Source: a virus. Taken from it: a stretch of DNA of 20,047 nt. How positions within the stretch are numbered: position 1 is the first letter of the stretch; each line of letters opens with the position of its first letter. Shown one piece after another: positions 2,065-4,769 of this stretch. The stretch is from the IMG/VR virus record IMGVR_UViG_3300026519_000079, positions 1 through 20,047 of that record. The stretch is one strand, 5' to 3'. The translations under genes and the position numbers were made by a program. The notes under the pieces are model-generated. The model saw nothing but the letters and a program-made list of their open reading frames with translations. It ran no database searches and was not told the DNA's origin.

Positions 2065-2660
2065 GCTGGTTTTGGCAAGGACTGAAAATGCTGCGTTACG
2101 GCGTGATCTATGCCGATCCGCCGTGGTCATTCGAGACCTATTCTCAAAAGGGCAACGGGCGGGGCTGTGCGTATGACACCATGAGCCTTGAGGAGATCAG
2201 CGCGCTGCGCGTGGCCGACTTGGCCGCGCCGGATTGTATGTTGGCGATGTGGGTGACTGACCCGTTCTTGGAGCAGGCTTTCGGGGTTCTCGACAGCTGG
2301 GGATTTCAATATAAAACTGTGGGTTTCACATGGGCAAAAACCGCCAAGCACCTGCCCGAGCAGCTCGACACCGACAAGCTGTCGAGATATTTCCCGATTG
2401 GCACCGGCCACCACACCCGCGCCAATCCGGAAATGTGTCTGTTTGCCACGCGCGGCGCGCCCAAGCGGCTGAATGCCTCCACGCGCCAGTTGATACTGGC
2501 CCCGCGCCGCGAGCATTCGCGCAAGCCAGACGAGGCCAGAGAGGCGCTCGAGAGGCTTTATAGAGGCCCACGGGTGGAGCTGTTTGCCCGCCAAAAGGTC
2601 AAGGGCTGGGCCGCGTGGGGGAATGAAACCGGCAAGTTCGAGGTGCTGTCAGATGGCTGA
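2061..2660 (+). CDS. MT-A70 family adenine methyltransferase
   Basis: A 199-residue S-adenosylmethionine-dependent methyltransferase of the MT-A70 family. Bacterial and phage members methylate adenine at N6 in DNA. The catalytic DPPW motif is at residues 19-22 (VIYADPPWSF). It is followed by family-typical stretches: AYDTMSLEEI, a hydrophobic strand ending in MWVTDP, GFQYKTVGFTWAK, TGHHTRANPEMCLFATRG, and the C-terminal REHSRKPDEARE then PRVELFARQKVKGWAAWGNE. The length is normal and no key residue is missing. The start is the ATG at 2061 overlapping the gemA stop. No restriction enzyme gene is adjacent, so this is an orphan methyltransferase. It probably protects phage DNA from host restriction, a role that Mu gives to Mom. 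The target site cannot be read from the sequence. Confidence 0.92.
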   Translation: MSWFWQGLKMLRYGVIYADPPWSFETYSQKGNGRGCAYDTMSLEEISALRVADLAAPDCMLAMWVTDPFLEQAFGVLDSWGFQYKTVGFTWAKTAKHLPEQLDTDKLSRYFPIGTGHHTRANPEMCLFATRGAPKRLNASTRQLILAPRREHSRKPDEAREALERLYRGPRVELFARQKVKGWAAWGNETGKFEVLSDG

Positions 2661-3042
2661 ATATGTGAGCCTGACCACGCTTTGCGAGATCGTAGATGAT
2701 GGACCAGCCCTGCGGCTGGTTTCTGCGCATGGTGGCCGGCGTGTTTATGTGCCCGGCAAGCTGACCGATGACCATGATCTGGTAAAGGTGATGGGCTACG
2801 AGGCCGCGCTGGCGCTGGTGCGCTATTTCTCCAAGGAGGAGACCGGCGGGGTGGAGATCGAGCTGCCGATGGGGCCAACCGGTGTGTTTGGCCAATATCG
2901 CCGCCGCCTTGCCAAGGCCGTGGCTGAAGGTGGCTCGGAGCAGGATATTGCGCGGCGTGTGGGCGTGCATGGCCGCACCGTGCGGCGCGAACGGCGGCGG
3001 CAACGCCAAGAGGTTGACCCAAATCAGGGAGATTTGTTTTGA
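2653..3042 (+). CDS. Mor/C-like middle/late transcription activator
   Basis: A 129-residue protein, about the size of Mu Mor and C. These activators bind a dyad-symmetric site upstream of promoters with poor -35 boxes and recruit RNA polymerase. The N-terminal half resembles the Mor dimerisation region: GGRRVYVPGKLTDDHDLVKVMGYE, AALALVRYF, then a GGVEIELP strand. The C-terminal half has a helix-turn-helix pattern: GGSEQDIARRVGVHGRTVRRERRR, with a strongly basic recognition helix. The ATG at 2653 overlaps the methyltransferase by eight bases. It is the only regulator in the window and lies just before the late operons, so it is the best candidate for binding the palindromes at 3827 and 11248. 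I cannot tell whether it combines the Mor and C roles. Similarity to Mor is by pattern, so confidence is moderate. Confidence 0.72.
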   Translation: MAEYVSLTTLCEIVDDGPALRLVSAHGGRRVYVPGKLTDDHDLVKVMGYEAALALVRYFSKEETGGVEIELPMGPTGVFGQYRRRLAKAVAEGGSEQDIARRVGVHGRTVRRERRRQRQEVDPNQGDLF

Positions 3043-3239
3043 GCGATATCCACCCCTGTTTTGAATGCAAGCTGACTGAGTGTGACGATAAAAGCCCGCG
3101 CTGCCGGTTGCGGCGCTGCATGGCGGATTTCGAGTATCACCGCCGCCGCAAGCTGCCGGTGCCGCCCCGCTTGCGGGAACAATACAACATCGCTCGAAAC
3201 GAGCTTTACCCTCGGCCATCGCGCCGAAAGGTTGGATGA
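3039..3239 (+). CDS. small cysteine-rich protein, possible zinc-binding (66 aa)
   Basis: The start is a TTG at 3039 that overlaps the previous stop as TTGA and has AGGGA (3026-3030) at good spacing, so reinitiation after the activator gene is likely. Five cysteines cluster in the first 27 residues: C7-X2-C10-X4-C15-X6-C22-X4-C27, a layout that could hold a zinc ion or form a small knuckle. The rest is basic and proline-rich (EYHRRRKLPVPPRLREQ). No known domain is recognised. It could bind nucleic acid or a protein partner; the location between the Mor-like activator and the Fic gene suggests a small middle-region accessory function. Confidence 0.7.
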   Translation: MSDIHPCFECKLTECDDKSPRCRLRRCMADFEYHRRRKLPVPPRLREQYNIARNELYPRPSRRKVG

Positions 3240-3251
3240 AAGGATAAAGTT

Positions 3252-3827
3252 ATGACTGATATTGGGAGAATTATTGAAGGTTTACGGACAGCGGCATTGG
3301 ATAATGCGCGCGCCGCTTTCTATCCAGATGGACCCGTGGTGATAACGGGCGGAAATTACCTTTATGATTTCGTAAAAGAAAGCAATCTGATTGAGGGCAT
3401 TCAGCGCGACCCCACACTTCCAGAAGTGCAAGCCCATCTTGACTTGATCAGCGGCGATGACATTTCCGCTGACAAGCTGAAAGCTTTCGTTGATGTTATT
3501 CAGCCCGGGGCCAAACTGCGTATGGGTACAAATATGAATGTGCGGGTGGGCGCTCACCGTCCAATCTCTGGCGGGCCGCAGGTGATGATCCAGCTCAACG
3601 AGATATTGAGCGACATTCGCACCTCGCACCCTTTCGAAATTTACTGCCGCTATGAAACCCTGCACCCGTTTATGGATGGCAATGGCCGCTCTGGCCGTGC
3701 ACTGTGGCTGGGGATGATGATCCAGAAGCTGGGCGAGCTCCCAAGGTCTTTTCTGAAGACGTTCCATTATCAGGCGCTGGCGATGCATGACCGCCGTCAG
3801 AAATTACGCGACTCAACCGCCAATTAG
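3252..3827 (+). CDS. Fic-domain protein (putative AMP transferase), with N-terminal inhibitory motif
   Basis: A 191-residue single-domain Fic protein. Fic enzymes usually transfer AMP, or another nucleotide-derived group, from a nucleotide to a hydroxyl on a target protein. The core motif HPFMDGNGRSGR at residues 138-149 is complete: catalytic H138, acidic D142 for Mg binding, and R146/R149 for phosphate binding. Upstream, SNLIEG at residues 44-49 fits the inhibitory pattern (S/T)xxxE(G/N), with E48 as the glutamate that blocks ATP; an inhibitory helix N-terminal to the core in the same chain is typical of class II Fic proteins. VRVGAHRPISGGP at 97-109 fits the target-binding flap region. The ATG at 3252 has AAAGGA seven bases upstream. 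Codon use looks more AT-rich than its neighbours, suggesting a recently added moron gene. The stop TAG runs into the late operator. The target is unknown. Confidence 0.9.
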   Translation: MTDIGRIIEGLRTAALDNARAAFYPDGPVVITGGNYLYDFVKESNLIEGIQRDPTLPEVQAHLDLISGDDISADKLKAFVDVIQPGAKLRMGTNMNVRVGAHRPISGGPQVMIQLNEILSDIRTSHPFEIYCRYETLHPFMDGNGRSGRALWLGMMIQKLGELPRSFLKTFHYQALAMHDRRQKLRDSTAN

Positions 3828-3842
3828 GACAGCTGTCCGGTT
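3825..3842. promoter_or_regulatory. putative late operator/promoter element upstream of lysis genes (Plys-like)
   Basis: TAGGACAGCTGTCCGGTT contains the perfect 12-bp palindrome GGACAGCTGTCC (3827-3838). Exactly the same 18 bases occur at 11246-11263 before the capsid operon. In Mu the C-activated late promoters Plys and PI occupy the same two places and use a dyad activator site. No convincing -35 box follows, as expected for an activator-dependent promoter, and no -10 box could be assigned with confidence. The probable ligand is the Mor/C-like protein at 2653-3042. Confidence 0.65.
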
Positions 3843-3872
3843 GTATTCCTGAATGTAAGAAAGAGTAGCTTC

Positions 3873-3902
3873 GAGCCAGACAATGGCACGGGGCTTTTTT
3901 TT
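3873..3902 (+). terminator. weak terminator-like hairpin with T-run before the endolysin gene
   Basis: AGCC (3874-3877) can pair with GGCT (3892-3895), extended by a G-T wobble, and eight T bases (3895-3902) run straight into the endolysin ATG. The stem is only four to five pairs with a 14-base loop. It might end part of the middle transcript or attenuate late transcription, but it lies downstream of the presumed late operator, so late RNA would have to read through it. Confidence 0.25.
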
Positions 3903-4769
3903 ATGCAAGTATCTCAACGACTGACTAAATTTGTGGCGGCGGAGGAAGGCGTGGTGACGCGCGCGTATCGGGACCCCGTGGGGATTTTAACGATCGGGGT
4001 CGGGCACACCTCGGCGGCGGGTGCGCCAGAGGTCGTGGTGGGCATGACCATCACGCGCGAGCAGGCGTTTGACATCCTGATGGTGGATTTGCGCAAGTTC
4101 ATGGCGCGCTGCGAAACCGCCATGCCCCGCGCGATGGATTTCGAGATTGAAGGCGCAACTTCGTTTGATTTTAACACGGGCGCAATCCACAAAGCCAGCT
4201 GGGTGAAGTTCTGGTCGGTAGGTGATGACAAGCAGGCGCGGGGGCGGTTTTTGCTGTGGAACAAAGCGGGCGGCAAGCGGCTGCGCGGGCTGGCGGCACG
4301 GCGGGAGCGCGAGGCGGATATCATCTTTTTGAACAAGTGGCCGGGTGGAGGCAATGATGCTAGCACCTCCAAGTACGACCCCGATCTAGCGCTACAGCTT
4401 ATTGAACTAGGTCACCTTCGTAGGCTACCCGACGCGCCAAAGAGCCTCCGCCAATTTGGCGCTTCAGATGTTGTGAGCGCTGTGGAGGCATTTCAGGTGA
4501 AACACAATCTTGTGGCGGATGGCATCGTCGGCCCCGCCACGCGCGCAACCTTGCAGCGGACCTTGGCGGCCAAGCGGGCCACCCGAGCCAGCGGGGCTGC
4601 GGGGCTTGCAACGGGTGGTGGCACTTTGCCACTAGATTCGATCAACAGCACCACGGCGCTGGCCATTTCAGCAAGTGTGATCGTGGCGGGCCTGTTGCTG
4701 GGCTGGGTCTATCGCAACCGTGGCCGCTTGTTTGGCATCCGCGCAAAAATCACAGATGGAGAGGTTTGA
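3903..4769 (+). CDS. endolysin: GH24 lysozyme with peptidoglycan-binding domain and C-terminal membrane segment
   Basis: A 288-residue muralytic enzyme that cleaves the glycan strands of peptidoglycan at host lysis. Residues 10-150 are a GH24 (T4 lysozyme-type) domain with the catalytic triad spaced E15-x8-D24-x5-T30, then SFDFNTGAIHKASW and WNKAGGKRLRGLAARRERE, both typical. Residues about 185-225 form a PG_binding_1-like repeat (VEAFQVKHNLVADGIVGPATRATLQ). Residues about 251-270 are one strongly hydrophobic helix followed by YRNRGR, so the enzyme probably sits on the inner membrane. There is no N-terminal signal. Around 4360-4450 codon use changes (CTA, AGG and similar), which suggests the C-terminal half was joined on by recombination. 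The start at 3903 has only a weak ribosome-binding site. It is the first gene of the lysis operon. Confidence 0.92.
   Translation: MQVSQRLTKFVAAEEGVVTRAYRDPVGILTIGVGHTSAAGAPEVVVGMTITREQAFDILMVDLRKFMARCETAMPRAMDFEIEGATSFDFNTGAIHKASWVKFWSVGDDKQARGRFLLWNKAGGKRLRGLAARREREADIIFLNKWPGGGNDASTSKYDPDLALQLIELGHLRRLPDAPKSLRQFGASDVVSAVEAFQVKHNLVADGIVGPATRATLQRTLAAKRATRASGAAGLATGGGTLPLDSINSTTALAISASVIVAGLLLGWVYRNRGRLFGIRAKITDGEV

Follow-up and report, generated by a model that had tools for sequence, protein, structure and literature searches.

Background

Known Fic enzymes include bacterial toxins, injected effectors and, as found lately, anti-phage defence proteins; the histidine of their core motif acts as a base and a loop binds the phosphates of ATP. 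In these enzymes the glutamate of a further motif, (S/T)xxxE(G/N), blocks productive ATP binding (PMC10628234). In FICD this glutamate is also required for deAMPylation (PMC10628234, PMC13327609), so that an invariant glutamate may reflect its use as a brake or an additional activity of the enzyme. Sofic, a class II Fic protein, acts as a single-protein anti-phage defence (PMC12249575). The Sofic of E. coli has the inhibitory helix and is toxic all the same, a second protein of 47 aa, AS1, being its neutraliser (PMC12249575); a class II motif is therefore no guarantee of restraint. A Fic protein of C. difficile is described, in work cited in PMC10628234, as able to AMPylate without regard to its inhibitory motif.

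The window, by which is meant the whole stretch of 20,047 nucleotides analysed here (positions 1 to 20,047 of IMG/VR virus record IMGVR_UViG_3300026519_000079), comes from a Mu-like phage and carries a fic gene on the plus strand at 3252..3827. The reading that we favour, with modest confidence, is that this gene encodes an accessory, compact class II AMP transferase which is regulated by its own helix and acts on a host protein or a host defence protein in the middle phase.

The Fic protein of the window

The gene starts with an ATG, preceded by the ribosome-binding-like AAAGGAT, and encodes a 191-aa mini Fic protein of class II type, recognised by Pfam, a family alignment and an AlphaFold core model. 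The Pfam Fic model PF02661 reaches 26.5 bits (cut-off 24) and matches 23 core residues, so that by itself the annotation would be marginal. The intact core announced by the original prediction is there: HPFMDGNGRSGR occupies residues 138-149 (codons 3663..3698), and both the motif HPFx[D/E]GN[G/K]R and the Fic fold that define Fic/Fido proteins are found. The enzyme probably attaches AMP to proteins.

N-terminal to the core, on the same chain as in class II proteins, residues 44-49 (codons 3381..3398) read SNLIEG, the predicted inhibitory motif, which ends a modelled helix at residues 34-47. Shuffling residues 1-137 produces the pattern (S/T)xxxE(G/N) in 8.2% of cases; a match in one sequence is thus weak evidence and relatives are needed to weigh it. 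Between the two motifs lies a conserved stretch at residues 88-107 (..LR....NVRVG.H.P..GG; codons 3513..3572), which hhalign places on G..R...V.I....P of cellular class II Fic proteins and which may be the flap.

Relatives of the protein and conservation of the inhibitory glutamate

In a scan of viral contigs the window protein matched 31 loci, about 23 of which align over most of the length at 35-52% identity, and a profile scan gave 80 further loci. Ten residues are invariant in all 87 distinct, divergent sequences of the family alignment (A2): S44, I47, E48, R90, H138, P139, D142, G145, R146 and R149. As the search patterns of the profile scan contained the inhibitory motif, an extra scan was made with a C-terminal profile only (patterns D[GC]NGR[ST]GR and FL[HQ]x[FW]YY). 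The inhibitory glutamate is kept in 74 of the 75 distinct members gathered in this way, counting two rows (SFIVES and SFVIES) that are overlapping regex matches in sequences reading ESN.IE by eye. The sole member seen with a changed glutamate (L347) has aspartate instead, in SNEIDG, and offers a natural test case. The inhibitory glutamate is thus as constrained as the catalytic histidine, and the earlier assignment of SNLIEG to the class II pattern stands, being backed both by these members and by the profile register described below. Seven independent pairs of closer relatives with usable values gave dN/dS of 0.05-0.40; the family is under purifying selection, and on these values, together with the intact core, the reading as a decayed gene is rejected.

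The window protein is slightly unusual within its family, as judged from Tyr131 and His172, where 84 of the 87 members of A2 have histidine and tyrosine, respectively; this counts against the preferred reading. A separate sublineage, seven of the 87 rows (L137, L148, L158, L166, L173, L186 and L187), has DCNGR for DGNGR; its motif is HPF(T/S)DCNGRSGR, with cysteine in place of the first glycine of the nucleotide loop. In another member (L010) the C-terminus of the fic ORF diverges from the family past the core in a frameshift-like manner.

A profile of cellular class II proteins was built from 29 Fic proteins and compared with the phage profile by hhalign (probability 99.5, E 2e-22). One alignment placed ESNLIEG over TSNAIEG and HPFMDGNGR over HPFMDGNGR, both motifs being in register. 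An HMM search of solved structures likewise aligned ESNxIEG on HSNKIEG of the C. difficile Fic protein. The whole-protein fold model had a pLDDT of 88.9 with a floppy N-terminal extension, and the AlphaFold core model (residues 33-179) reached a pLDDT of 96.7 and a pTM of 0.91. Foldseek matched it with probability 1.00 to FICD, SoFic and CdFic (TM 0.5-0.68 by query length). The comparison with class II structures that had been proposed as a check thus came out in favour of class II: FICD and SoFic top the fold search and fit across the whole core (SoFic TM up to 0.66), the Fic protein of M. marinum reached TM 0.68, and the class III protein NmFic fits worse (TM 0.35-0.48). These alignments support homology of SNLIEG to the class II inhibitory motif. 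By analogy with the solved class II proteins E48 would contact R149 in the nucleotide pocket, and the enzyme is predicted to be restrained through SNLIEG.

Position in the genome of the window phage

The middle genes run in the order GemA, MT-A70 methylase, late activator, a Cys-rich 66-aa ORF and fic. The Mor/C-like late transcriptional activator lies at 2656..3042 on the plus strand (PHROG 836, E = 1e-19 on the longer ORF 2584-3039; the ATG at 2656 was picked by eye). It is followed on the same strand by the 66-aa ORF (3039..3239), which ends 12 bases from fic, in the same operon, and is not an obligate partner of it. Downstream of fic an intrinsic terminator closes the middle operon at 3867..3902, also on the plus strand, with a stem-loop at 3867-3895 and then T8 (RNA fold -15.4 kcal/mol, z = -4.7); a stem-loop of this kind also stands at the equivalent place in RcapMu. 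The first late gene, an endolysin (3903..4769, plus strand; PF00959, PHROG 7), marks the site in relatives without fic. Gene order and this strong terminator confirm the earlier view that fic closes the middle region. From this layout fic is most likely expressed in the middle phase, after induction and before lysis and assembly.

The palindrome GGACAGCTGTCC at 3827..3838 overlaps the fic stop codon. Three copies of GGWCAGCTGWCC are present in the window (3827, 11248 and 17032; 0.00 expected), each ahead of a late gene block, and the first shares one base with fic, the last of the stop codon. The palindrome is likely the operator of the late activator, and the position of fic right before it is as the original prediction had it. 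No copy turned up in the relatives searched, and we regard the palindrome as a candidate operator private to the window phage.

The base composition of fic had been called foreign. It is mildly low (GC 52.3% against 58.8% for the window; GC3 0.58, the second lowest of 24 genes), and to that extent the statement holds, but in relatives the GC of fic tracks that of the phage (mean difference -0.004), so that the claim was overstated and the case for a recent foreign origin is weak. A function-unassigned ORF at 935-1429, between HU and GemA, has a GC3 of 0.55, the lowest of the window; it matched no family in Pfam or PHROGs and is another candidate accessory gene.

Three cultured Mu-like phages of Rhodobacterales, RcapMu, RS1 and RcWaterboi, share the middle and late gene order of the window phage and have the lysozyme directly after the late activator, with no fic between. 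Viral scans with single proteins (late activator, terminase, lysozyme and the Cys-rich ORF) gave no matches, the queries being exact peptides from a divergent phage. With a terminase profile, from which RcapMu and RcWaterboi were left out for their unrelated terminase, 80 Mu-like loci were selected, 56 of which reach the fic region. The fic family was found in none of the 80, including none of the 56 that span the region. What relatives carry at this place had been named as a check, and the answer is that fic is an accessory, non-virion gene of the middle operon; a virion gene or a core gene of Mu-like phages is rejected by its absence from 56 of 56 spanning relatives and, at the same place, from the three cultured phages. 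Given the relatives without fic and the terminator downstream of it, the gene has been gained, or else retained, in the stretch that runs from the activator to the close of the middle operon.

Neighbours of fic in other phages

The surroundings of fic are not conserved. Across 89 loci the most frequent neighbour family, a DNA methylase, occurs in only seven, and no conserved small ORF was found within 350 bases of fic. This agrees with the earlier claim that no separate antitoxin is needed, as no linked one is seen in these loci; the neutraliser AS1 of E. coli Sofic and the second role of the glutamate in FICD nevertheless limit that claim and the self-restraint it rests on. The 66-aa ORF was considered as an antitoxin and ruled out, since a homologue (43%; L210:2778-2951) lies in a Mu-like locus without fic. 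This ORF has five cysteines and no family match, and is possibly a small zinc-binding middle protein.

By simple gene calls, fic and the gene upstream of it share a strand in 64 of 88 loci, with a median gap of 4 bases. Many relatives adjoin replication genes (helicase, primase, DNA polymerase, exonuclease or ribonucleotide reductase). A few members, such as those of L120 and L145, lie near structural or integrase genes and count against the explanation that we prefer.

On one viral contig (L114:381-959; IMGVR_UViG_3300048586_000914) a gene for a LuxI-type autoinducer synthase (PF00765, E 5e-22) stands directly upstream of a fic gene of the family. The two share an ATGA stop/start overlap, so that a quorum-signal synthase is apparently coupled to fic there.

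Distribution of the family

Among 50,697 phage records one member was found, UFK26723.1 of Roseobacter phage RDJL6, annotated as a hypothetical protein, and among 72,556 plasmids none. In 399 genomes drawn from one phylum the seed genome alone has a member. Among the matches listed in the bacterial genome scan one is a close member, in a gammaproteobacterial MAG (L033) whose contig could be of phage origin. In Pfam, PHROGs and NCBIfam no model covers the family from end to end; PHROGs 5978 and 11900 match the core and were rejected as larger Fic families of unknown function. The compact family thus looks restricted to phages, occurring across very different ones and almost never in bacteria. 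Class II Fic proteins are a known kind, and it is the compact, phage-restricted and partner-free family that appears undescribed in the sources searched. No paper on a phage-encoded Fic protein modifying a host protein was found in the open literature library, itself an incomplete collection.

Tyrosine integrases scored above the cut-off in two of 19 family-bearing records and serine recombinases were found in none of 20; as these contigs, up to 199 kb long, may be fragments, the counts show a tendency and are no proof of a lytic life. Transposing phages do without integrases of either type. Integrases being scarce among the phages examined, a role during infection is favoured. The original prediction had left two roles side by side, modification of a host protein in favour of lytic growth and action in lysogens against other phages; of the two, the former fits this distribution better.

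Proposed function and alternative explanations

In the reading that we prefer, the enzyme would be made from the middle transcript, after the onset of the lytic programme and before the lysis and head genes. It would very probably take AMP from ATP and attach it to a hydroxyl group on a host protein or a host defence protein, H138 serving as the base and the loop D142-GNGR-xxR149 binding the nucleotide. SNLIEG, at the end of its helix, would set E48 against R149, the second arginine of the motif, and E48 would either hold the enzyme off or turn it to the removal of AMP, until it is released by the target, the dimer state or the nucleotide supply. With such a built-in switch no antitoxin gene would have to travel along, and a single gene could move freely between unrelated phages as a cassette for host takeover or counter-defence.

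The protein might instead serve as a prophage-borne defence, made in the lysogen, that responds to infection by another phage by AMPylating an essential host protein and so aborts the infection, as Sofic does. Being Mu-like, the window phage is probably temperate, and the SoFic model is the best PADLOC match of its protein (5e-8) and matches all 26 members scanned. That match, however, spans only 26 core residues, and fic lies in an operon read after induction, ahead of a terminator. Moreover the low integrase counts and the long contigs do not suit such a role, and a defence gene would be expected in bacterial genomes, yet the seed genome was the only one of the 399 genomes of its phylum to have it. 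Defence of the lysogen is therefore unlikely.

Another explanation, to which we give similarly little credence, is counter-defence: the invariant glutamate would be catalytic and the protein a deAMPylase that strips off the AMP put on by host Fic toxins or Sofic and so undoes abortive infection. Fic domains of FICD and EfFic do remove AMP, the glutamate being essential in FICD (PMC10628234, PMC13327609), and in Fic-1-AntF Glu28 of the antitoxin is critical for removal (PMC13327609). In addition, the best fold matches are to FICD, including its deAMPylation complex with BiP, the glutamate is as conserved as the catalytic core, which is more than a mere brake needs, and a narrow distribution among phages would suit an arms-race gene. 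Against this, the glutamate is also invariant in the cellular class II set (A4) and its conservation does not discriminate; furthermore, no host Fic target is linked to the phage enzyme and no phage deAMPylase was found in the literature library searched. It is equally doubtful that the widespread, phage-restricted minimal family as a whole consists of AMP removers or bifunctional switches which cancel Fic- or Sofic-based abortive infection.

Lower still do we rate a Fic fold with another chemistry (transfer of UMP, phosphate or phosphocholine), or a cysteine-variant sublineage put to another use. Fic folds are known for other transfers and the DCNGR variant does occur in the family, but the AMPylation core of the window protein is canonical and complete, with no changes of ANK or Doc type. 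A class I-like toxin restrained by an antitoxin on another chain, or a decaying gene, is largely refuted and very improbable indeed: small bacterial Fic proteins are mostly parts of FicTA modules (PMC8401265) and the 66-aa ORF lies directly upstream, but here the inhibitory motif is on the protein's own chain, that ORF has its homologue in a relative without fic, no partner is conserved in the 89 loci, and the core is intact with dN/dS well below 1 in relatives.

If the self-regulated class II transferase that we favour is real, a compact class common to unrelated phages would make up a new group of enzymes by which phages act on host proteins, in a family that has no dedicated model and only one cultured member. 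This phage mini Fic protein could also be a minimal model of class II autoinhibition. The gene is small and single, its candidate residues for mutants with loss of function (H138) and with release (E48) are clear, and a cultured pair exists in RDJL6 and Roseobacter denitrificans, which makes AMP transfer and removal directly testable.

Comparison with known systems

The phage family has HPFxDGNGRxxR and an N-terminal helix with (S/T)xxxE(G/N), in the same order as the class II proteins of known structure (CdFic 4x2e, SoFic 3eqx, FICD/HYPE 4u04 and CbFic2 8cil). It differs from these cellular proteins in size (about 150 aa against 230-400), in the distance from the inhibitory motif to the core (about 96 residues against 113-155), in the lack of a winged helix, TPR or other extra domain, and in its restriction to phages. 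Identity in fold alignments with cellular class II proteins is about 17-22%. From the FicTA modules of class I it is set apart by an inhibitory motif on the same chain and by the lack of a conserved neighbour.

Sofic is, like the window protein, a class II Fic encoded by a single gene, and the PADLOC SoFic model matches the core of the latter. Sofic is nevertheless a model of 361 positions whose C-terminal domain is needed for its toxicity (PMC12249575), and the NCBIfam SoFic model NF046030 gave the window protein only 23.9 bits against a cut-off of 550, matching residues 133-170 alone, which falls far short of the full-length Sofic model.

Other phages also have a Fic core encoded in their genomes, namely TP901-1 (ORF56), the Streptococcus Javan phages and the Fusobacterium phage Fnu1. 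Their proteins match in the core only (E 0.03-0.8), that of Fnu1 with a weak fold match (E 0.06), and fall outside this family. The one cultured member is UFK26723.1 of RDJL6, which is 40% identical to the window protein over 83% of the latter and 47% identical to a hand-written family consensus; RDJL6 is a Chi-like siphovirus of another lineage than the window phage, and its fic gene adjoins an exonuclease.
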